Of a DNA stretch of 64,000 bases, positions 2,393 through 50,800 are shown in pieces. The position numbers and the translations under genes were made by a program. Within the stretch, counting starts at the first letter, position 1; each line of letters begins with the position of its first letter. The notes under the pieces are model-generated. The model was not told the DNA's origin. It made no database searches and saw only the letters and a list, made by a program, of their open reading frames with translations. Origin of the DNA: Phytoactinopolyspora alkaliphila (GTDB taxonomy: Bacteria > Actinomycetota > Actinomycetes > Jiangellales > Jiangellaceae); assembly GCF_010550695.1 (NCBI RefSeq), contig NZ_JAAGOB010000008.1, forward strand, positions 1 to 64,000, in the 5' to 3' direction.

Positions 2393-2601
2393 GTGGGCCG
2401 ATCATAGCCATTCTTCAACGGTGGGGATTTCGTTCCCAGCGTTGGACGACGTCGCGCGCCAGAGCACACACAATCTTCCAATGCTGCTCCACAATCGTCC
2501 ACTGTTGAGCGGGCAGGCATGACCTTCTGCGATGTCCGATGAATTCCTCGTGCCGAGCCAGTCAACCTCACTAAACCGCCCCGCGCTTGGAGGGAACACT
2601 C

Positions 2602-3189
2602 ATGCTCGATCTGGAACCCGCGATTCGTGAGATGGCGAGCCTCGTGACGGAGACTCGCGACGACCAGCTGTCCGGACCGACCCCGTGCGTCGGAGTGACG
2701 CTGGGTGATCTGATCGACCACGTCGACGGCTTGGCCCTCGCCTTCACCCTCGCCGCGACCAAGACGACCCCGGTAGGCGGCAGCCAGCCGCCGTCCCCAG
2801 ATGCGTCGCGCCTGGGTCCGGATTGGCGTATCCGGATCCCCGAGCGCCTCGGCGCCCTTGCCCAGGTATGGAAGGACGTCGAGTCGTGGACGGGGATGAC
2901 AGTGGTCGGCGGAGTCCAGCTTCCCGGAGACGTCGCCGGCGTCGTGGCGCTGGATGAGCTCGTCGTCCACGGCTGGGACATGGCTGTCTCCAGCGGGCAG
3001 GCGTTCACCTGCGACCCGGATCTCCTCCAGGCGACGTACGAGTTCGTTCAGTCGTCAGTGGCACAGAATCCCGAGGGCAGTCCCGGACTGTTCGGGCCGC
3101 CGGTGCCGGTGCCGGACGATGCGCCGCTCCTCGATCGGCTGATCGGCCTCACCGGTCGCGACCCCGCTTGGCGGCCCGCGTCACGGTGA
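2602..3189 (+). CDS. TIGR03086-type (maleylpyruvate isomerase/DinB-like) protein
   Basis: A 195-residue protein starting MLDLEPAIREMASLVTETRDDQLSGPTPC in two pieces typical of the TIGR03086 subfamily of the mycothiol-dependent isomerase/DinB-like four-helix fold. The diagnostic metal-site blocks are present: DLIDHVDGL near residue 40 and LDELVVHGWDMA near residue 120, with histidines at the positions that hold the divalent metal in the wider fold. The ATG at 2602 has GGAGGG about eight bases upstream; an in-frame TTG at 2587 would place this site inside the gene and is less likely. Substrate unknown; mycothiol-linked chemistry is a family-level inference. Confidence 0.8.
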   Translation: MLDLEPAIREMASLVTETRDDQLSGPTPCVGVTLGDLIDHVDGLALAFTLAATKTTPVGGSQPPSPDASRLGPDWRIRIPERLGALAQVWKDVESWTGMTVVGGVQLPGDVAGVVALDELVVHGWDMAVSSGQAFTCDPDLLQATYEFVQSSVAQNPEGSPGLFGPPVPVPDDAPLLDRLIGLTGRDPAWRPASR

Positions 3190-39721: not shown

Positions 39722-40990
39722 TCAGAGCCCGTTCAGGTGCTGCCGCCCATCGGCCGGCTCATCGTCGAGACTCGCCCTCAGCGCTGCCATCTCCACGCCC
39801 AGCCCCTGCACGGTGCCGAGGATCGAGGCCTCGAAGCGCTGATATGTCCGCACCATGGCCGCCAGCACTTCCCGCTCGTGGTGAAGCCTCGCGTTCTCCA
39901 GTCTGAGCTCCTCGGCCGACGCCGCTCGCTCGGACCAGGCGGCCGAAGCCAGGCTCAGCAGGCGCGACGACGCGAGCGTCACATCGGATGCAGGCGTCAG
40001 GCCGCCGGTGCCTACTGCCGTGAACTCACGCTGCTCAGGCACGCCCACGGATGTCCCGTCGTCATCCACCGGATGGACGAGCCGGATGCCCGGCCGCACC
40101 GGACGGCCCACCAGCTCCGCCGCGCGCGCATCGAGAAACTCGGCGATGTCGGCGACATCCTGCGTTAGCGGCAGCTCGGCGACTCGGTGCCGCTGGGCGA
40201 AGCCGAGAATCTGAGCGAGCCGCCTGACCTGACTGTCGTCGATGCGTTCCCGGCTCAGCGTCCGGTGCCGGTGGGAATCCATGGGCGCGTCGAGGTCGAC
40301 GCCGGGCGAGTATGTGCGCACGGTGCCCGGCGGCACGGCGTGACGGTCGCCGAGCATCTCGGTGAACTCTCGCTCGGCGGCGGCGTCGAGCAGATATATC
40401 ACCCCGAGGCCGGCGAGTTCCCAGGTGACCCGGCTGGCCCAGGTGTACAGCTCCGCCAACGGCCGCACGGTGTGGCTCGCGACGAGCACGGCGCCGCGCC
40501 TCGACTCGTCCGCGAGGTAGTCCATCAGATCAGGCAATCCACTGGGCTGGATCCAGGTGGGCTCCACGGACGCCGGTGTCCTGCCGTCGTAGCACGTCAG
40601 TTCACCCATCACGGCCCGCTGAAAGCTCGGCACCGACATGAAGCTCTGGAATCCGTACGGGTTGACGCGGCTCGCCTCGGAAAGTTCGATCTCCGTCCAC
40701 AACCAGCCAGCGTGACCGGGGTACTCGGCTGCGGTCACCGTGGTGCGCCACATGGTGGTGGTGGTCTGCGGCTGCGGGTGCTCCCGCCGCCAGCGAAAGA
40801 GACGCCCGTCGCCGTGTGGTTCATGGAGCACGCTGATGACGTCGTTCTCCTTGAGCAGGTGCTTGCCCGGCTCGAGGGTCGAAGCGTCGATGCCCTTCGC
40901 CTCGGTCCAAAGGGTCAGGTGCCTCACGACGGTCTCGACGAGTGGTTCGCCTTCCGCGACGTTGAGGTACGACCGGTATCCGACGCCCAT
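39722..40990 (-). CDS. Unrecognised 422-residue protein with C-terminal coiled coil
   Basis: From an ATG at 40990 with GAGAGGTGGGG upstream. It starts MGVGYRSYLNVAEGEPLVE. Visible segments: an N-terminal alpha/beta region (residues 1-130), WIQPSGLPDLMDYLADESRRG near 160, a Rossmann-like LGVIYLLDAAAEREFTEMLG block near 202, a PGTVRTYSPGVD motif near 227, HRHRTLSRERI near 244, and a heptad-like C-terminus (about 355-410) rich in A, L, E and R. The GVIYLL...GTVRTYSPG arrangement reminds me of domains in predicted anti-phage proteins, from memory only. No signal peptide or membrane helix. A standalone minus-strand gene. Confidence 0.6.
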   Translation of the reverse strand: MGVGYRSYLNVAEGEPLVETVVRHLTLWTEAKGIDASTLEPGKHLLKENDVISVLHEPHGDGRLFRWRREHPQPQTTTTMWRTTVTAAEYPGHAGWLWTEIELSEASRVNPYGFQSFMSVPSFQRAVMGELTCYDGRTPASVEPTWIQPSGLPDLMDYLADESRRGAVLVASHTVRPLAELYTWASRVTWELAGLGVIYLLDAAAEREFTEMLGDRHAVPPGTVRTYSPGVDLDAPMDSHRHRTLSRERIDDSQVRRLAQILGFAQRHRVAELPLTQDVADIAEFLDARAAELVGRPVRPGIRLVHPVDDDGTSVGVPEQREFTAVGTGGLTPASDVTLASSRLLSLASAAWSERAASAEELRLENARLHHEREVLAAMVRTYQRFEASILGTVQGLGVEMAALRASLDDEPADGRQHLNGL

Positions 40991-41088
40991 GACCCCACCT
41001 CTCGAAGTTTCGTTTACTGATACGATAACTTCATACAGCGCAAGAAGGGATCCCGTCAACCGTTGATGTATTCGGGGCCGCTAGCCGA

Positions 41089-42150: not shown

Positions 42151-42382
42151 CGACCACTCCCCTGAATTCTCGCCATGCGAATCCAAGCTAACCGGGCCCA
42201 CTCGGCAATCCCCAGGGGACGCCTTCTATTTTGCTCGACACATAGTTTTCACCCGCCTTCGCCTAATGGACGAACAGCGTCGCGTATCACACACTTCGCC
42301 CAGACAATTTCGCCATAGCCTTTGTTCCGGAGGGTCCGCCCCCACCTACCTATTTCTCGGGCGGGCCGGAAGGGGCGGGAAC

Positions 42383-43798
42383 GTGAACACAACCGAAGCC
42401 CAGACCATCGGGCAGATTATTCGGCGAACAAGGCTCGAACTCGGCATGAGCCAGTACGTCCTCGCGGACCGGCTCGCGGCTGTCTCGGGCAAGCCGACGA
42501 TGGGGCGAGACCGGGTGGCCCGATGGGAGCGCGGGAGCCAGGTGCCCCGCAACGAATGGCGGCAGTGGCTCTCGGCGGTGCTGGACGTCCCCACCGACAG
42601 GCTCGATCGGGGCGCGGAGGTGGCGAGACGGCAGAACCGCCTCGGCCATGCCCTGGTCACGGGCAGCACCACGGCATCGACCGGGACCGCACGGCGCGCA
42701 CAAGGCACGCCGGCCCTTCTGCCGGTGTTCCGGTCGCGGGTCCAGGCGGGCATACTGGCGGCCACCTTGCTGAATCCGAGCCGTGCTTTCAGCCTGTCCG
42801 AGCTGGCCGAAGAGGCCGGCGGCTCACTCGCCTCGGTGTCGAAGGAGAGCAAGATCCTGGAAGAGGCCGGGATCCTCTACACCCGCTACGAGGGCGCGAT
42901 CCGGCTGATCCGCGCCGCCACCGACAAGCCGATGCTCAGTCCACTGACGGAGCTGATCCGGGTGACCTATGGCGTTCCGCAGGTGATCGGAGAGGAGTTC
43001 GGCAGGGCCGCGGGTGTCGCGCAGATCGCCCTCACGGGCACCTGGGCGGAACGATTCGCGGGCGTGGCAGGTCCCGAGCCGGAGAGCATCCAGGTCCGCC
43101 TGATTCCCGTCGCCGACGAACACCCGGACGTTCGCGAGCTTCGCGCCGCCGCGCACCGGGCCGAAGCCCGCTTGCACCGGCCGGTGGTGTTCTCCGTGGC
43201 CACGAAGCGCCCGCCCGCTGGCCAAAGGGGCCGGCGCGCGCCGCGTACCGCCACGGCCGCACGGGTACCCCGCCAGCGCAGCCACGGCCCGGTGGTGCAT
43301 ATCGCCCCGCAGTCGACGCCGGACGCGATGCCGCCCACGGCGGAGGCGTGGGCTACCGGAGCCGACGTCATCGCCCGGCTGAACGGAGGCGGCCACCTCG
43401 AACTGTTCAGCGGCCCCTCCGCGGACAGCCGGCCACACTTCGAGGTGGCGGCTCACCATCTCGAATCGGCCGAGAGGGTCCTCGCGTCATCGCCGGAATC
43501 GGCGTTCGTCCTGATGTACCAGGCAGCACAAGCGATCGGCACCGGCTTGCTGGCGGCGCAGGGCCTGCGCGTCGCCGCCGGAAGCCCCGGGGACGTGCTC
43601 GGCCAGGCCGCCGTCGCGCAGTTCGGCCCACAGTTCCGTCAGCTCGAGCTGCTCCGTCAGCGGCACCTGGCCATGACCGACCCGAGCTGGCGTGACAACC
43701 GGGTCGCCGACATCGACGTCGACGGAGCCCTTCCGGCGATCCGCGCACTGCTGAAATCGGCGCAGGATCTGACCATCGAACTCAACCTCTTCGCCTGA
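42383..43798 (+). CDS. XRE HTH, winged-helix, NTase-like and HEPN-like fusion protein
   Basis: A 471-residue protein from a GTG at 42383 with GGGGCGGG upstream. Residues 9-70 are an XRE HTH (IRRTRLELGMSQYVLADRLA, VARWERGSQVP). Residues about 118-178 form a winged helix (FSLSELAEEAGGSLASVSKE). Residues about 205-270 align with the NTase-like block usually read as GSWAxRxxGxxGxxPxDIDVL, but here GTWAERFAG (219-227) and ESIQVRL (234-240) lack the Gly-Ser and Asp-x-Asp catalytic residues. Residues about 350-465 form an all-helical HEPN-like domain (HFEVAAHHLESAERVLAS, FVLMYQAAQAIGTGLLAAQGL) ending with LELLRQRHLAM. A basic linker sits at 275-310. A regulator or toxin-like sensor; precise activity unknown. 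Confidence 0.7.
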   Translation: MNTTEAQTIGQIIRRTRLELGMSQYVLADRLAAVSGKPTMGRDRVARWERGSQVPRNEWRQWLSAVLDVPTDRLDRGAEVARRQNRLGHALVTGSTTASTGTARRAQGTPALLPVFRSRVQAGILAATLLNPSRAFSLSELAEEAGGSLASVSKESKILEEAGILYTRYEGAIRLIRAATDKPMLSPLTELIRVTYGVPQVIGEEFGRAAGVAQIALTGTWAERFAGVAGPEPESIQVRLIPVADEHPDVRELRAAAHRAEARLHRPVVFSVATKRPPAGQRGRRAPRTATAARVPRQRSHGPVVHIAPQSTPDAMPPTAEAWATGADVIARLNGGGHLELFSGPSADSRPHFEVAAHHLESAERVLASSPESAFVLMYQAAQAIGTGLLAAQGLRVAAGSPGDVLGQAAVAQFGPQFRQLELLRQRHLAMTDPSWRDNRVADIDVDGALPAIRALLKSAQDLTIELNLFA

Positions 43799-43918: not shown

Positions 43919-44899
43919 TCAGTTCTCCAGCGTTTCGGACGGCAACTCGCCGAAGCGCCTCTGGTACTCCGCGGCAAAGCGGCCCGGGTGACCGAGCCCC
44001 CACTTCGCTACGACCTGCCCGACCGTGATCGCGTCGCGTTGCGCCGCCCGAAGCTCTTCACGGGCGCGCTGCATCCGCACGGCAGTCAGATAGCGTCTGG
44101 GCGACATGCCCAGGTGCTTGGCGAAGCCGTGCTGCAGCGCCCGAACGCTCACGTTGGCCTCCTTGGCGAGCATGTTCACCGTGTGCCGCCACTCGGGGTG
44201 ATTCTCGATCAGCTCCCGGGCGATACTCACCGCCCGGCTCGGCACCGGGCACAGCGTGGAGTCGTCCAGCAGATCCGAGTAATTGTGGCGCTGAGACAAC
44301 AGAAGCCCGGTGAGGAGCCCGTTCTCGAGCTCGGTCGCCGCTAGCTGATTGTTGACCAGGCTGTCGTCGGAGCGGTCGAGTTCATGCACCATGTATCGCA
44401 CACCGTTCGCCCAGCTCAACCCGAATCCTGACCCGACGTCCATCCCCAGGGAGAACCGGACCGGACGCGGAAGCGGGGCACCGAGCAGATCACGCAGGTG
44501 TGCCTCAAGCGCAGGCCGTTCTATCCGCAGGATCAGCATTGTGCAATCTCTGGACCAGCGCATGCTCAGGGGCTCGGTGGGCGACACGACCGAGGCGAAC
44601 CCTGGCTTGGAGTAGATGACCTCATTGCCGCAACTGACCGTGCAATGCCCGGAGAGCGGTATCTGAACGACGAAGAACGAGCCTAACTCTCCCGGCTCGA
44701 TGAGGACGTCGCCGCCGTACTCCACGTAGTTGGCGGCGACCCGCCCGATCCGGCGGGTGTGCATCCGTGCGTCCAGCGTCTTCGACTTTCCCACCAGATC
44801 GAGCCGATGCGGTACGAACACCCTGCCGACGATGTCACGTGCTTCATCGAGATCGGTCGAATGGAAGAGCTCGAAACGCTCAAGTGGCAAGCCCGTCAT
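43919..44899 (-). CDS. AraC-family regulator
   Basis: A 326-residue regulator from an ATG at 44899. Residues about 30-215 are the AraC-binding-like N-terminal domain (FHSTDLDEAR, FVVQIPLSGHCTV). Residues about 225-325 are two HTHs of the AraC type: ELIENHPEWRHTVNMLAKEANVSVRALQHGFAKHLGMSPRRYL landmarks and VVAKWGLGHPGRFAAEYQRRFGELP. It is divergent from tnaA with 189 bases between starts and is the obvious candidate regulator of tryptophanase. The inducer is unknown, though similar activators respond to aromatic acids. Confidence 0.88.
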   Translation of the reverse strand: MTGLPLERFELFHSTDLDEARDIVGRVFVPHRLDLVGKSKTLDARMHTRRIGRVAANYVEYGGDVLIEPGELGSFFVVQIPLSGHCTVSCGNEVIYSKPGFASVVSPTEPLSMRWSRDCTMLILRIERPALEAHLRDLLGAPLPRPVRFSLGMDVGSGFGLSWANGVRYMVHELDRSDDSLVNNQLAATELENGLLTGLLLSQRHNYSDLLDDSTLCPVPSRAVSIARELIENHPEWRHTVNMLAKEANVSVRALQHGFAKHLGMSPRRYLTAVRMQRAREELRAAQRDAITVGQVVAKWGLGHPGRFAAEYQRRFGELPSETLEN

Positions 44900-45088
44900 G
44901 ACCTTTCCGATCAGAGCGGCGAAGAGAACTAGACAAGGGTAGTCTCCTCCTCACTCAGAGTCACCCCCCGTGACTTACTGTTACCAAGCGGGACCGCGCA
45001 ACCTTCGCATGCCGCCGTGCCGGGGAGTCCTCCTCAGGTGAACTGGCCCCTGCCCCCGCGTGCATGATCACCAGCACACTTGGGGTTC

Positions 45089-46489
45089 ATGGAGACAGAT
45101 CGACCGCCCGCGGAGGCACAGCCGGCTCCCCCGTTCATGGAGCCGTTCCGGATCAAGTCAGTGGAACCCATCCCCTTCCCGACCCGAGACCAGCGCCAGG
45201 CCACGCTCGCCCATGCCGGATACAACCTGTTCCGAGTGCCGGCAAGGCAGGTCACGATTGACCTGCTCACCGACTCTGGCACGAGCGCAATGTCGGCGGC
45301 GCAGTGGTCCGCCCTGATGTCCGGGGATGAATCATACGCCGGAGCGGAGTCGTTCGAAAGGTTCGAGTCGGTGGTGCGTGATCTCACCGGCTACGACGAG
45401 GTCCTGCCGGTGCATCAGGGCCGCGCCGCTGAACGCATCCTGCTCGGAGCCGTCCTGCGTCCCGGAGACGTGTCCATCAGCAACACCCATTTCGACACCA
45501 CCCGGGCCAGCGTGGAGGCGGCCGGTGCGCACGCCGTCGATCTTCCCGTCGACCACGCCACTCCAGTGCCGTTCGGCGGCGACATGGACCTGAACGCGCT
45601 GGCGACCCGGCTCCGCGGAGCAGACGGTCCGGACGCGCGCTGCGTGGTTCTGACCATTACCAACAACGCCGGCGGCGGGCAGCCCGTCGGGATGACCAAC
45701 GTCGAAGCCGTGCGCCGCCTGTGCGACGAGCACGACGTTCTCCTTCTGCTCGATGCTTCCCGCTTCGCGGAGAATGCCTACCTGATCACGCAGCGCGACC
45801 CCGACTACGCCCACCACAGTCCGCGAGACATCGCCCGGGTGGTCTTCTCGATGGCTGACGGGTGCTGGGCGAGCCTGAAGAAGGACGGCATCGGCAACAT
45901 CGGCGGGCTGATCGCACTGCGCGATCCTGATCTGGCCCGGCGCTGCCGCGAACTGCTCGTGGCCACCGAGGGCTTTCCTACCTACGGCGGGCTGGCCGGG
46001 CGAGATCTCGACGTTCTGGCGCAGGGGCTCATCGAGGTGACCGATCCCCGCTACCTGCGCTACCGAGCCGAGGCCGCGCACTGGTTCGGCAGTCAACTTG
46101 CCCAAGCCGGCCTGCCGATACTCCGGCCCACCGGGTGTCACGCCGTTTATGTCGACGCGGCCGCCCTGCTGCCGCAGCTCGAAGCACACGAGCTCCCCGC
46201 CACGTCGCTCGCGAACGAGATCTATCTCGCCGGCGCGATCCGGGTCACGGACCTGGGCACCTTGGTGTTCGGCCGTGCCGATCCCGACACCGGCCACGAG
46301 GAGCCCGCGCCTCGCGAGCTGGTGCGCTTCGCCCTCCCCCGGCGTGTCTACACGAAGAGCCACCTGGAATACGTCGTGCAGCACGCCGGCGGGGTGGCCG
46401 CCCGCGCTCAACGCCTGCCGGGGTACCGGATCAGCGAGCAGAGCCCGACCCTTCGCCACTTCACCGCCGTGCTGAAGCCGTGGGGGTGA
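45089..46489 (+). CDS. tnaA: Tryptophanase (tryptophan indole-lyase)
   Basis: A 466-residue PLP enzyme that splits tryptophan to indole, pyruvate and ammonia. Family landmarks: EPFRIKSVEP at 18-27, DLLTDSGTSAMSAAQWSALM at 58-77 region, HQGRAAERIL near 109, NNAGGGQPVGMTN near 192, DASRFAENAYL near 222, and SLKKDGIGNIGG with Lys265 as the probable PLP lysine. Residues that separate tryptophanase from tyrosine phenol-lyase favour tryptophanase: Asp136 (E. coli Asp137), Leu389 (Ile396; Arg381 in the lyase) and His457 in LRHFTA (His463; Phe in the lyase). Start chosen as the ATG after TTGGGGTTC. It overlaps the convergent XRE gene by 29 bases. A substituted tryptophan may be the true substrate. 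Confidence 0.88.
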   Translation: METDRPPAEAQPAPPFMEPFRIKSVEPIPFPTRDQRQATLAHAGYNLFRVPARQVTIDLLTDSGTSAMSAAQWSALMSGDESYAGAESFERFESVVRDLTGYDEVLPVHQGRAAERILLGAVLRPGDVSISNTHFDTTRASVEAAGAHAVDLPVDHATPVPFGGDMDLNALATRLRGADGPDARCVVLTITNNAGGGQPVGMTNVEAVRRLCDEHDVLLLLDASRFAENAYLITQRDPDYAHHSPRDIARVVFSMADGCWASLKKDGIGNIGGLIALRDPDLARRCRELLVATEGFPTYGGLAGRDLDVLAQGLIEVTDPRYLRYRAEAAHWFGSQLAQAGLPILRPTGCHAVYVDAAALLPQLEAHELPATSLANEIYLAGAIRVTDLGTLVFGRADPDTGHEEPAPRELVRFALPRRVYTKSHLEYVVQHAGGVAARAQRLPGYRISEQSPTLRHFTAVLKPWG

Positions 46490-46775
46490 GCCGGGTGACC
46501 CGGGCAACCCGCGCGGCCACCTCGACCTCGCGCTGTGGCACGTCGAGCACGCTGCTGAGCCACTCTCGCCAGTACGGACCCGGTATCCGTTTGCCGCGTT
46601 CCCACCTCGCGACCTCCTCCCGGGTCAGGGAACTGTTCCCCGACGCATCCGCGAGCTGTTCAGCGATCTTGTGTTGGCTATATCCCAGGCTGCTTCTGAC
46701 CCGCCGGATCATGATCCCCACCGGCTCGTTCCCTTGCGCCACCTGCGTCGTCCTCCACCGTTCGGTCACCATCAA
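46461..46775 (-). CDS. Small XRE-family regulator related to the N-terminus of the HEPN fusion
   Basis: A 104-residue protein from an ATG at 46775. An XRE HTH spans about residues 20-75 (IRRVRSSLGYSQHKIAEQLADASG, VARWERGKRIPGPYWREWLSSVLDVP as landmarks). The helix order and the ARWERG...WLSxVLDVP end match the N-terminal domain of the 42383-43798 protein closely enough to suggest common ancestry. It lacks the winged-helix, NTase-like and HEPN-like parts. It lies head-to-head with the radical SAM gene across 240 bases and overlaps the tnaA 3' end, so it may control the radical SAM gene. Confidence 0.8.
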   Translation of the reverse strand: MMVTERWRTTQVAQGNEPVGIMIRRVRSSLGYSQHKIAEQLADASGNSSLTREEVARWERGKRIPGPYWREWLSSVLDVPQREVEVAARVARVTRLTPTASARR

Positions 46776-47017
46776 CCTCTCTCCGCCCCACTGAAAGCCT
46801 AGGAGTGGAGGCAGGCATGGCTAGTCCGATTCGCGAAGGATGCTGTCCAAATCGCGATGGATCAAAGACGGTGTGCACCGACCGGTTCGTAGCACCTCTC
46901 ACCTGCGCACACGGCATGTATCGGCCCCTGCCGCAGCCGACCGTGGCGATGCCAGGATCGGCCATACCCCGTGGCGTGGCCATCGGGCTCAGCAGGCGGC
47001 ACTGACAAGGAGCCAAC

Positions 47018-48688
47018 GTGCGCGGACCACTCGTCACTCTGGTCAACCCGAACCTGGTACATCCACCCATCACGCCCTACGCGCTGGACATCCTCACCAC
47101 GTCGCTGGAGGCGGTCGGGTTCGACGTCGAGGTGCTCGATCTCTGCCTGATGCGGCACGCCTGGCGCCGCGGCGTGGTCGAGTACTTCACCCGACGGCAG
47201 CCCTCCCTGGTGGGCGTGACCTTCCGCAACACCGACACGATCTATCCCCAGGAACAGCGCGTCTTCCTGGATTCGCACCGGGACGTCGTCCGCGAGATAC
47301 GGCGGCACTCAGCCGCACCCATCGTCGGCGGTGGCGTCGGCTTCTCCTCCATGCCGTTCGCCCTCGTCGACTACCTCGGTATCGACTACGGCGTGAAAGG
47401 GCCCGGTGAGACCACACTGGTCGCCCTGGCCGGGGCGCTGGCCGAGGACCGGCCCGTGGACACCGTCGGCGGGCTGATCGTCAACCATGGTGACGGTGTC
47501 GTCCGCCAGGTTCCGCACGCCAGCCGGCTGATCGCCCTCGGCCGGGCGTCGCTGGTGAATCGGACCACGCCGTACACCCGCAGGTCCGGCACGCCGAACC
47601 TGGTGGACAACCTCGCCTACTACCGCCGCGGCGGCCTCGGCAACATCCTCACCAAGAACGGCTGCGCATTCGCCTGCACCCACTGCGTCGAACCCGACGC
47701 GAAGGGCAACCAGTTCGCCCGCAGGGCCGAGACGGCCGTCGTCGACGAGATGGAGTCGCTCACCGCACAAGGCGTGTACCACCTGCACACCACCGACAGC
47801 GAGTTCAACCTGAACATCGCCCACAGCAAGGCGATCCTGCGGGAGATCGTCCAGCGCAAGCGGGCCGACGCGTCGTCGTCGCTGCATCGGCTGCGGCTGT
47901 GGATCTACATCCAGCCGGCACCGTTCGACGAGGAGTACGCCGCGCTGCTGGCCGAGGCCGGCTGCGCCGGCGTCAACGTGGCGCCGGACCATGTCCGCGA
48001 CGAGGTCCTGGACGGCTGGAAGGTCACCGGGAAGGGATCGCGGTTCTACACCTTCGACGACGTCCGCACGGTCTGCGAGCTGTCTCACCGGTACGGCATG
48101 CTGACCATGGTCGAGGCGTTGCTCGGCATGCCAGGCGAGACGGAGTCGACGATGCGCGCATGCGTGGACGGGCTGATGTCCCTAAACGCGACCGTCGTCG
48201 GATTCACCCTGGGCATCCGCGCGTTCCCCTATTCGCCGCTGGGAATCCGCCTCGCGGAGGCGAGCCGCGGCATCCGGCCGGTACGCGGTGTCCAGTCCAA
48301 CACCGCGGCCGCTGCGATCCTCCTCGCCCCACGAGCTCAATGCGCCAGCGCGGTCGAATACGAGCGGCAGTTCATGTTCGGCCCGGACGGCGGCTTCCGG
48401 CCGGTCTACTACTTCTCCCCGGCGCTTCCGGACGGGCCAGCCAGCACGGATCCCGCAGCCCGGTGGATGCGTAGCCTGGAGCTGCTGTGGGAATGGGTGC
48501 CGCCGCAGGACCGGCACCGCGTCATGCTTCCCACGGGACCGGGGCTGAGCGCCGAGGACAACAACTACGCCGACAACCCGTTCCTGATACGGCTCACCGA
48601 ACTCGGGCACAAGGGCGCGTACTGGGCGTACTGGCCGCGGCGCGAGGAGATCATGTCGACGGCGGACACCTCGGCCGGCCGCCGTTGA
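47018..48688 (+). CDS. Cobalamin-binding radical SAM protein, TsrM (tryptophan C2-methyltransferase)-like
   Basis: A 556-residue protein from a GTG at 47018 with AAGGAG upstream. Residues 1-140 are a B12-binding Rossmann domain (VTLVNPNLVHPPITPYALDIL, VGVTFRNTDTIYPQE). Residues about 205-430 are a radical SAM barrel with Cys216, Cys220 and Cys223 in CAFACTHC (CxxxCxxC). Landmarks HTTDSEFNLN near 257 and LWIYIQP near 294. Arg70, Glu262 and Tyr297 fall where residues reported for the TsrM structure (Arg69, Glu273, Tyr308, from memory) would align, with a constant offset for the latter two. TsrM methylates tryptophan C2 by a non-radical mechanism. Proximity to tryptophanase supports a tryptophan-related substrate. 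Other B12 radical SAM methylases remain possible. Confidence 0.8.
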   Translation: MRGPLVTLVNPNLVHPPITPYALDILTTSLEAVGFDVEVLDLCLMRHAWRRGVVEYFTRRQPSLVGVTFRNTDTIYPQEQRVFLDSHRDVVREIRRHSAAPIVGGGVGFSSMPFALVDYLGIDYGVKGPGETTLVALAGALAEDRPVDTVGGLIVNHGDGVVRQVPHASRLIALGRASLVNRTTPYTRRSGTPNLVDNLAYYRRGGLGNILTKNGCAFACTHCVEPDAKGNQFARRAETAVVDEMESLTAQGVYHLHTTDSEFNLNIAHSKAILREIVQRKRADASSSLHRLRLWIYIQPAPFDEEYAALLAEAGCAGVNVAPDHVRDEVLDGWKVTGKGSRFYTFDDVRTVCELSHRYGMLTMVEALLGMPGETESTMRACVDGLMSLNATVVGFTLGIRAFPYSPLGIRLAEASRGIRPVRGVQSNTAAAAILLAPRAQCASAVEYERQFMFGPDGGFRPVYYFSPALPDGPASTDPAARWMRSLELLWEWVPPQDRHRVMLPTGPGLSAEDNNYADNPFLIRLTELGHKGAYWAYWPRREEIMSTADTSAGRR

Positions 48689-48757
48689 CAACGCTGCGGT
48701 AACCATCGCACCGTCACAGCCGTGACGGCCCCGGCCGGCGTCGGATAGGTTTTGCTG

Positions 48758-50800
48758 ATGGTTGACAACCCCCTTCTCATCGCCAGCGACCTGCCGTACC
48801 AGCTACCGCGGTTCGAGCAGATCGAGCAGTCGCACTACCGGCCCGCTTTCGACCATTGCATGGCCAAGCATCGTGCGGAGATCGACGCCATCGCGGCCAA
48901 CCCCGAGCCACCGACGTTCGAGAACACCATCGTCGCCCTGGAACGCAGCGGCCAGCAGCTCATGCGGGTGTTTCTCGTCTTCTTCAACCAGGCCAGCGCC
49001 AACACCAATGCCGAGATCCAGGAGCTGCATGGTGAGCTCTCGCCGCAGATAGCGGCACACCAAGACGCCATTCTGCTCAACCCGGAGCTGTTCGCCCGGG
49101 TGAGAGCGGTGCACGACGCGAGCCCCGAGCTCGACCCGGAGTCGCGCCGGCTCCTGGACCGCACCTATCTGGAGTTCACCCGAGCCGGTGCCGGTCTCAC
49201 CGCAGACCAGCAGGCCAGGCTGCGCGAGATCAACGGGGAGCTGTCCGGGCTGTCCACCGCGTTCGGGAATAAGCTTCTCGACGACACCAACGCCACGGCC
49301 GTCGTGGTCGACGACGTCGCGGACCTGGATGGGCTATCCGCGGACGCCATTGCCGCCGCGGCTGAGACCGCACGTCAACGGGGGCTGGACGGCAAGTACG
49401 TCATCACCCTCGGCCTGCCTAGCAACCAGCCGGTTCTCGCGTCACTGAGCAACCGTGACCTGCGCGAGCGGATCCACCGCGCCTCGATTCAGCGGGGCGC
49501 CAACGGCAACGAGCACGACACCGCGGCCACCGTCGCCCGCATCGTCGCCTTGCGGGCCGAACGCGCAGCGCTGTTCGGACACCACAGCCATGCCGCGTAC
49601 ACGCTGGAGGACTCCACCGCCGGCTCACCCGCCGCCGTGCACGAGATGCTCGACAAGCTGGTGCCGGCCGCCGTCGCCAACGCCCAGGCTGAGGCGGAGG
49701 CGCTGCAGGAGGCTGTGGGTGGCGAGTTCACCCTGCAAGCGTGGGACTGGGCGTTCTACTCCGAACAGGTGCGCCGCACCAAGTACCAGGTCGACGAGGC
49801 GGAACTGCGTCCCTACTTCGAGCTGGAACGCGTGCTGCACGACGGCGTATTCTTCGCCGCCCACCGTCTCTACGGCGTGAACTTCACCGAGCGGCACGAC
49901 CTCACCGCCTACCATCCGCAGGCGCGGGTCTTCGAGGTCACCGAAGAGGACGGCTCCCCCCTGGGGCTATTCGTCGGCGACTTCTTCGCCCGCGAATCCA
50001 AGCGCGGTGGCGCGTGGATGAACTCCTTCGTCGAGCAGTCGTCGCTGCTGGGCACGCAGCCCGTGGTGATCAACAATCTGAACGTCACCCAGCCGCCCGC
50101 GGGCGAGCCGGCGCTGATGACCTTCGACGAGGTCAACACCATGTTTCACGAGTTCGGCCACGCCCTGCACGGCTTGTTCTCCGACGTCCGGTACCCGAAA
50201 TTCTCCGGTACCAGCGTCCGCCGGGACTTCGTCGAGTTTCCGTCCCAGGTCAACGAGATGTGGTCCACCTGGCCGGAGGTCCTGGCCAACTATGCGCGTC
50301 ACTACCGCACGGGGGAGCAGCTTTCGCCGGAGGTGGTGCAGCGCCTGCTCGACTCACAGATCTGGGGCGAAGGCTTCAAGACCACCGAGTACCTGGCGGC
50401 GTCGCTACTGGATCTGGCCTGGCATGAGCTCAGCGCCGACGACGCCGGCACCATCACCGCCGACGACATCCCCGGCTTCGAGACCGCCGCGCTGGAAGCC
50501 GCAGGTATCGCCCTCGACACCATCCCGCCGAGGTACCGCACCACGTACTTCGCGCACATCTTCGGCGGCGGCTACAGCGCCGGATACTACTCCTACATCT
50601 GGAGCGAGGTCCTCGACGCCGAGACCGTCGAGTGGTTCAAGGAGAACGGCGGGCTGACCCGGGAGAACGGCGAGCACTTCCGCCGTACCCTGCTGTCCCG
50701 CGGCGGCAGCGTCCCGGAGATGGACGCGTTCCGCGAGTTCCGCGGCCGCGACCCGCAGATCGAACCCCTGCTGGAACGACGCGGCCTCAACCGCAGCTGA
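48758..50800 (+). CDS. dcp: M3-family peptidyl-dipeptidase Dcp
   Basis: A 680-residue zinc metallopeptidase starting MVDNPLLIASDLPYQLPRFEQI, an ATG at 48758. The active site MFHEFGHALHG gives His464, Glu465 and His468, and GYSAGYYSYIWSEVLDAE near 612 is the conserved C-terminal block. Length matches Dcp (about 681), which removes C-terminal dipeptides in the cytoplasm and in some species contributes to peptide recycling. The ribosome site is weak (a G-rich stretch further upstream). Its 70-base distance to the radical SAM gene leaves co-transcription possible. It converges on a TetR gene across the family II repeat. Confidence 0.9.
   Translation: MVDNPLLIASDLPYQLPRFEQIEQSHYRPAFDHCMAKHRAEIDAIAANPEPPTFENTIVALERSGQQLMRVFLVFFNQASANTNAEIQELHGELSPQIAAHQDAILLNPELFARVRAVHDASPELDPESRRLLDRTYLEFTRAGAGLTADQQARLREINGELSGLSTAFGNKLLDDTNATAVVVDDVADLDGLSADAIAAAAETARQRGLDGKYVITLGLPSNQPVLASLSNRDLRERIHRASIQRGANGNEHDTAATVARIVALRAERAALFGHHSHAAYTLEDSTAGSPAAVHEMLDKLVPAAVANAQAEAEALQEAVGGEFTLQAWDWAFYSEQVRRTKYQVDEAELRPYFELERVLHDGVFFAAHRLYGVNFTERHDLTAYHPQARVFEVTEEDGSPLGLFVGDFFARESKRGGAWMNSFVEQSSLLGTQPVVINNLNVTQPPAGEPALMTFDEVNTMFHEFGHALHGLFSDVRYPKFSGTSVRRDFVEFPSQVNEMWSTWPEVLANYARHYRTGEQLSPEVVQRLLDSQIWGEGFKTTEYLAASLLDLAWHELSADDAGTITADDIPGFETAALEAAGIALDTIPPRYRTTYFAHIFGGGYSAGYYSYIWSEVLDAETVEWFKENGGLTRENGEHFRRTLLSRGGSVPEMDAFREFRGRDPQIEPLLERRGLNRS

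Follow-up and report, generated by a model that had tools for sequence, protein, structure and literature searches.

We suggest that a 64,000-nucleotide stretch of the Phytoactinopolyspora alkaliphila genome (contig NZ_JAAGOB010000008.1, positions 1 to 64,000; hereafter the window) probably encodes a co-regulated, two-enzyme pathway leading from tryptophan (Trp) to 2-methyltryptophan and on to 2-methylindole, a product and an order of steps that we infer from sequence. The genes in question are tnaA (45089..46489, + strand), for a pyridoxal phosphate (PLP)-dependent tryptophanase, and tsrM (47018..48688, + strand), assigned at the family level to a cobalamin-dependent tryptophan C2-methyltransferase with the radical S-adenosylmethionine (SAM) fold. 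In the first step, TsrM would transfer a methyl group from SAM via cobalamin to C2 of L-Trp, giving 2-methyl-L-tryptophan; in the second, a dedicated TnaA would beta-eliminate this amino acid to 2-methylindole, pyruvate and ammonia. The pair is probably controlled by two regulators, one AraC-type and one short XRE-type, and the two promoters have an operator-like motif in common. The module has no other conserved enzyme, and the pathway therefore probably stops at 2-methylindole, an indole that is volatile or able to cross membranes and might, at a guess, act as a signal or an antagonist. With a little less confidence, we favor the broader view that this is an undescribed, dedicated 2-methylindole pathway of rare actinomycetes, made up of TsrM and a specialized 2-methyltryptophan indole-lyase under their own regulators, and that, in actinomycetes, the pairing of a tryptophanase with a Trp-tailoring enzyme for the production of substituted indoles has arisen repeatedly.

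The tsrM product, with a GTG start preceded by AAGGAG, is a 556-aa protein carrying B12-binding and Radical_SAM domains. It scores 918.5 bits against the TIGR04428 "tryptophan 2-C-methyltransferase" equivalog (cut-off 500), and its nearest solved structure is TsrM (6wte, E = 9.5e-213, aligned over almost the full length). Other B12 radical SAM families were rejected, as the runner-up model, TIGR04072, reached only 172 bits (cut-off 360); the protein is therefore TsrM at the equivalog level. The original prediction, made from the letters of the window alone, had pointed to the B12 domain, to a CxxxCxxC motif at residues 216–223, and to a correspondence of Arg70, Glu262 and Tyr297 with Arg69, Glu273 and Tyr308 of TsrM. 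All of this is borne out: the motif cysteines (CX3CX2C, Cys216/220/223) and the three residues, which align with R69, E273 and Y308 in KsTsrM numbering, are invariant in 61/61 aligned homologues. Arg69, below the cobalt, and Glu273, on the cluster, are thought to account for the non-radical catalysis of TsrM (PMC8992657). The TsrMs of thiostrepton/siomycin-type thiopeptide clusters and KsTsrM (6wte/6wtf) belong to the same family with all known catalytic residues, and C2 methylation of L-Trp is expected. Family membership strongly suggests that the window protein, the single TsrM in this 5.5-Mb genome, would convert L-Trp to 2-methyl-L-tryptophan by methylation at C2.

The tnaA product matches PF01212 (beta-eliminating lyase) at 230 bits in a Pfam search and passes the NF009709 tryptophanase subfamily model (564 bits, cut-off 285). 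It falls below the cut-offs of the TnaA equivalogs TIGR02617 (395 vs 826 bits) and NF053783 (445 vs 750 bits), and likewise below that of the tyrosine phenol-lyase (TPL) equivalog; since only the broad subfamily model was passed, we class it as a tryptophanase-family enzyme and not as a TnaA equivalog. The closest solved structure is the P. vulgaris tryptophanase (1ax4). Asp136, Leu389 and His457 had been read as marks of a tryptophanase, and this was right in part. Asp136 is equivalent to Asp133 of P. vulgaris (Pv) and Asp137 of E. coli (Ec), His457 to Pv His458 and Ec His463, and Leu389, which aligns with Ec Ile396 and TPL Arg381, speaks against TPL, an identity that we rejected as the whole Thr124/Arg381/Phe448 signature is absent. 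Leu389 is, however, not a canonical tryptophanase residue, as this position (Ec396) holds Ile in 19/19 canonical enzymes and Leu in 22/23 TsrM-linked ones. Residues of the fold and PLP site (Lys266, Asp223, Asn194, Arg414, Tyr72, and Ser52) are identical in 27/27 linked tryptophanases, and with the general catalytic residues unchanged their chemistry should be intact. A 2-methyl group should also ease protonation at indole C3, the step on which elimination depends. Canonical TnaA (E. coli tnaCAB, Proteus TIL) shares this PLP chemistry and a catalytic set of Lys266, Asp133, Tyr72, Arg414 and, mostly, His458, but is only ~35–54% identical to the linked enzymes, differs from them at indole-lining positions and lacks their adjoining AraC and XRE genes.

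A scan of genome contigs yielded 63 TsrM loci, and in 21 of them tnaA lies within ~5 kb of tsrM. These belong to Jiangellaceae, Pseudonocardiaceae and one Streptomyces (Jiangella, Phytoactinopolyspora, Amycolatopsis, Haloechinothrix, Actinophytocola, Prauserella, Sciscionella, and Streptomyces tauricus). Among whole genomes of Jiangellaceae, 15/15 with a full-length TsrM carry an adjacent tnaA on the same contig, while the sampled members without TsrM (G002, G004, G007, G008, G009, and G011) have no tnaA either, which argues that the adjacency is not due to chance; one further genome (G012) has only part of a TsrM and lacks tnaA. Across the class, in a sample of 394 genomes, above-cut-off TsrM occurred only in Jiangellaceae, and tnaA in 40. 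The pair is retained in four gene orders: tnaA and tsrM in one direction with araC and xre in the other (araC-tnaA-xre-tsrM, Jiangellaceae); all four genes in one direction as tnaA-araC-xre-tsrM (most Pseudonocardiaceae); a reverse araC followed by forward tsrM and tnaA (A. jejuensis); and a forward series of an amino-acid permease gene, tnaA and tsrM, with a 4-bp GTGA overlap of genes (S. tauricus, the only linked locus seen with a permease beside tnaA). The survey of this linkage, proposed together with the original prediction, thus finds it conserved across families and gene orders. The linked TsrMs, S. tauricus excepted, also form a subclade of their own.

A tree was built from 53 tryptophanase-family proteins (23 TsrM-linked and 30 unlinked). 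In it, a branch with 98% support in the SH-like approximate likelihood ratio test (SH-aLRT) separates all 23 linked enzymes, including that of S. tauricus, from the unlinked ones, and within this sample the linked clade was seen only adjoining TsrM. Its sister group (99% support for the joint clade) consists of actinobacterial tryptophanases of IptA-type clusters. Each of the sister-clade loci (L150–L157) has conservon genes (histidine kinase, roadblock, DUF742, and GTPase) and a 340–370 aa protein, identified by Pfam as a tryptophan dimethylallyltransferase (Trp_DMAT) in the cases tested. In such "Type A" clusters IptA prenylates Trp, and the tryptophanase has been proposed to free the prenylated indole (Ozaki et al. 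2013, PMC3617294). The closest relatives of the window TnaA are therefore enzymes already believed to act on a modified tryptophan by cleaving it, a precedent which supports the route from Trp through 2-methyltryptophan to 2-methylindole put forward at the outset, with the product itself still a prediction. The design of the module would parallel that of the Type A clusters (Streptomyces sp. SN-593), where a Trp-modifying enzyme also adjoins a dedicated tryptophanase and modification precedes cleavage. It differs in having a B12 methyltransferase in place of the aromatic prenyltransferase and AraC and XRE regulators in place of the conservon, and in having no P450 or other tailoring oxidase. 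The genomes of Amycolatopsis deserti and A. jejuensis hold both pairs, each with a separate tryptophanase paralogue. An IptA hidden elsewhere in the window genome was rejected, as no PF11991 (Trp_DMAT) protein was found there, with positive controls matched in five genomes (G111, G250, G398, G397, and G403).

Near the indole ring of the E. coli tryptophanase lie Asp137, Phe304, Val394, Ile396, and His463 (PMC5805759). The linked clade retains the first two and, besides the Ile-to-Leu change at Ec396, differs at several others. Ec394 is Thr or Ser in 21/23 linked enzymes, as opposed to Ala in 7/8 IptA-type and Cys or Val in canonical ones; Ec400 is Val or Thr in the linked, Tyr in the IptA-type and Met or Leu in the canonical enzymes; and Ec357 likewise differs between linked and Type A tryptophanases. 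At Ec463, canonically His, nine of the 23 linked enzymes, all of them from Pseudonocardiaceae, have Gln. As the corresponding H458A mutant of the P. vulgaris enzyme retains just 1.6% of kcat on Trp (PMC11301627), this replacement hints at a substrate different from plain Trp.

An 11-bp motif, YGGCCCCTNCC, precedes both genes in the window: as TGGCCCCTGCC (45044..45054, + strand) 35 bp upstream of the tnaA ATG, and as CGGCCCCTGCC (46922..46932, + strand) 86 bp upstream of the tsrM start. Counting close variants, the 64-kb window contains four occurrences. In most Jiangellaceae loci, the two promoters are its only sites in the vicinity; most Pseudonocardiaceae, with all four genes in the same orientation, have the motif or a variant ahead of the first gene, tnaA. 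A −10-like box, CACACT (45075..45080, + strand), lies 20 bp downstream of the copy at tnaA and belongs to a conserved element that is the putative tnaA promoter. The longer form including this box was found at 15 linked loci, always upstream of tnaA, and a single time in 822 kb of sequence from other loci. A 14-bp form, AAYTGGCCCCTRCC, is matched exactly at the tnaA promoter and at no other site of the window genome; counts of one-mismatch 14-mers are at background, and we therefore claim no wider regulon.

Several observations weigh against the proposed pathway. The window TnaA retains every residue required for the cleavage of plain Trp and may simply produce indole; the pocket changes of the linked clade are placed by alignment and not by structural distance to indole C2; and the tryptophanase step of the IptA clusters was itself proposed from cluster content (PMC3617294). 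The correlation between TnaA and TsrM distances (Mantel r 0.85), a point in favor of the pathway, in part reflects shared species history. Finally, three AraC-XRE-TsrM loci (L012, L014, and L015) have no tnaA, suggesting that TsrM can function without it; the genomes of the first two carry a complete pair elsewhere, while the third, a metagenome-assembled genome, has no tnaA anywhere.

These tnaA-less loci, which fall in the linked TsrM clade, would fit an alternative in which the true product is 2-methyltryptophan, serving as an antimetabolite or a building block, and the linked TnaA removes or recycles it for self-protection or salvage. Thiopeptides do use TsrM products as building blocks, and the other TsrM clusters probably do so too. 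We nevertheless consider this unlikely, as no gene for a peptide, a ligase or export, nor any other biosynthetic gene, is conserved across the linked loci, and as the promoter motif shared by the two genes argues for joint production. A thiopeptide context for the window TsrM was rejected as well: the pair had been described as lying outside any thiopeptide cluster in the window, and this extends to the whole genome, which has no PF14028 (Lant_dehydr_C) protein, whereas the positive controls S. actuosus (L040), S. sioyaensis (L052), and A. thermalba (L023) were all matched; this absence, too, speaks against 2-methyltryptophan as the true product. Such a genomic setting goes with thiostrepton TsrM but is not required for membership of the TsrM family. 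The thiopeptide route sends 2-methyltryptophan to quinaldic acid, while the partner of TsrM in the window is a tryptophanase.

The same end product could be reached in the reverse order, with TnaA freeing indole and TsrM then methylating indole or a derivative at C2, an alternative already entertained in the original prediction. Apart from the Trp-cleaving residues kept by the window TnaA, the promiscuity of TsrM on the indole side speaks for it. However, thiostrepton TsrM loses most of its activity on substrates without the amino-acid part of Trp, retaining <20% on 3-methylindole, and both the amino and the carboxyl group matter (PMC4632189). The catalytic residues of TsrM are, moreover, unaltered in the linked clade, and the reverse order leaves both the divergent TnaA pocket and the separate TnaA clade unexplained. 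Together with the IptA precedent, the loss of activity leads us to favor methylation first, and we give the reverse order a similarly small chance.

It is more doubtful still that the two enzymes are merely co-regulated branches of Trp catabolism, with TnaA making indole and TsrM making 2-methyltryptophan independently. The canonical tryptophanase residues would allow it, but the exclusive occurrence, within the sample, of this TnaA clade beside TsrM, the loss of His463 in nine of its members and the fact that genomes with another tryptophanase keep the TsrM-linked copy separate all argue otherwise. We regard as very improbable a TnaA running synthetically (from indole or 2-methylindole with pyruvate and ammonia, or serine, to Trp analogues) and feeding TsrM, as this direction requires high pyruvate and ammonia and the module offers no source of indole analogues. 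That the tryptophanase reaction is reversible (PMC11301627) speaks in its favor.

If the methylation-first pathway is real, TsrM, the model non-radical radical-SAM methylase, would gain a physiological function beyond thiopeptides, and the pathway would define a 2-methyltryptophan indole-lyase usable for making substituted indoles and tryptophans. The signal molecule indole would then have a methylated counterpart, made under dedicated regulation. We know of no dedicated biosynthetic route to 2-methylindole, a small scent-like molecule, and in the open-access literature, with most subscription journals outside its scope, we found neither a TsrM-tryptophanase pair nor 2-methylindole together with a tryptophanase in actinomycetes. 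As a rule for genome reading, we propose that a substituted indole can be expected wherever a Trp-tailoring enzyme adjoins a tryptophanase of its own.

The regulators flank the two genes as had been noted at first sight, and both are conserved beside the pair in relatives. The AraC-family protein (43919..44899, − strand; AraC_binding_2 and HTH_18) is divergent from tnaA, and its nearest named model is AndR, a regulator of the anthranilate pathway, at a score well under the cut-off. The short XRE-type DNA-binding protein (46461..46775, − strand) is divergent from tsrM, and the 3' end of its gene overlaps the end of tnaA by ~29 bp. Except in S. tauricus, the AraC regulator and mostly also the XRE protein accompany tsrM. 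A 480-aa XRE/HTH protein (42356..43798, + strand) may be a third regulator; its gene stays with the module in most loci of Jiangellaceae and in Haloechinothrix and Actinophytocola. Jiangella loci (L004 at 2486–3121, L005, L006, L007, and L029) have a second AraC-like protein of ~211 aa adjoining the full AraC, which matches the ligand-binding but not the DNA-binding part of AndR.

Among the other neighbors, the M3 peptidase (48752–50800) was rejected as a member of the system, as it lies 3–5 kb further away or was not seen in relatives, and a 445-aa open reading frame (39722–41059, − strand) has no Pfam or NCBIfam match. A search for a cobalamin riboswitch or other Rfam elements at the locus gave chance-level matches only. 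Given how near the −10-like box is to the ATG at 45089, the tnaA transcript could be leaderless, or the gene could start instead at a conserved Met at 45137. Phytoactinopolyspora halophila has a second, canonical-type tnaA (G005:C16:58236-59603) on the same contig as its TsrM-linked copy, ~43 kb away. In the tnaA-lacking TsrM loci of A. deserti (L012, ~6556) and A. tucumanensis (L014, 3.4 kb upstream of tsrM), the shared motif occurs a second time where no gene is apparent, perhaps as a relic of a lost tnaA or as another target.

A separate TsrM subclade from Streptomyces, Lentzea, and Actinacidiphila, next to the crystallized KsTsrM in the tree, is found in a conserved non-thiopeptide cluster extending to both sides of tsrM (L031, L034, L035, L036, L037, L043, L046, L047, L048, L053, and L056). 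It encodes two ATP-grasp/L-amino-acid ligases, a lysine/ornithine N-hydroxylase, two acyl-CoA-dehydrogenase-like flavoproteins, DAO, a BBE oxidase, MFS and cupin proteins, and may be responsible for an uncharacterized ligase-made natural product, perhaps one containing 2-methyltryptophan.

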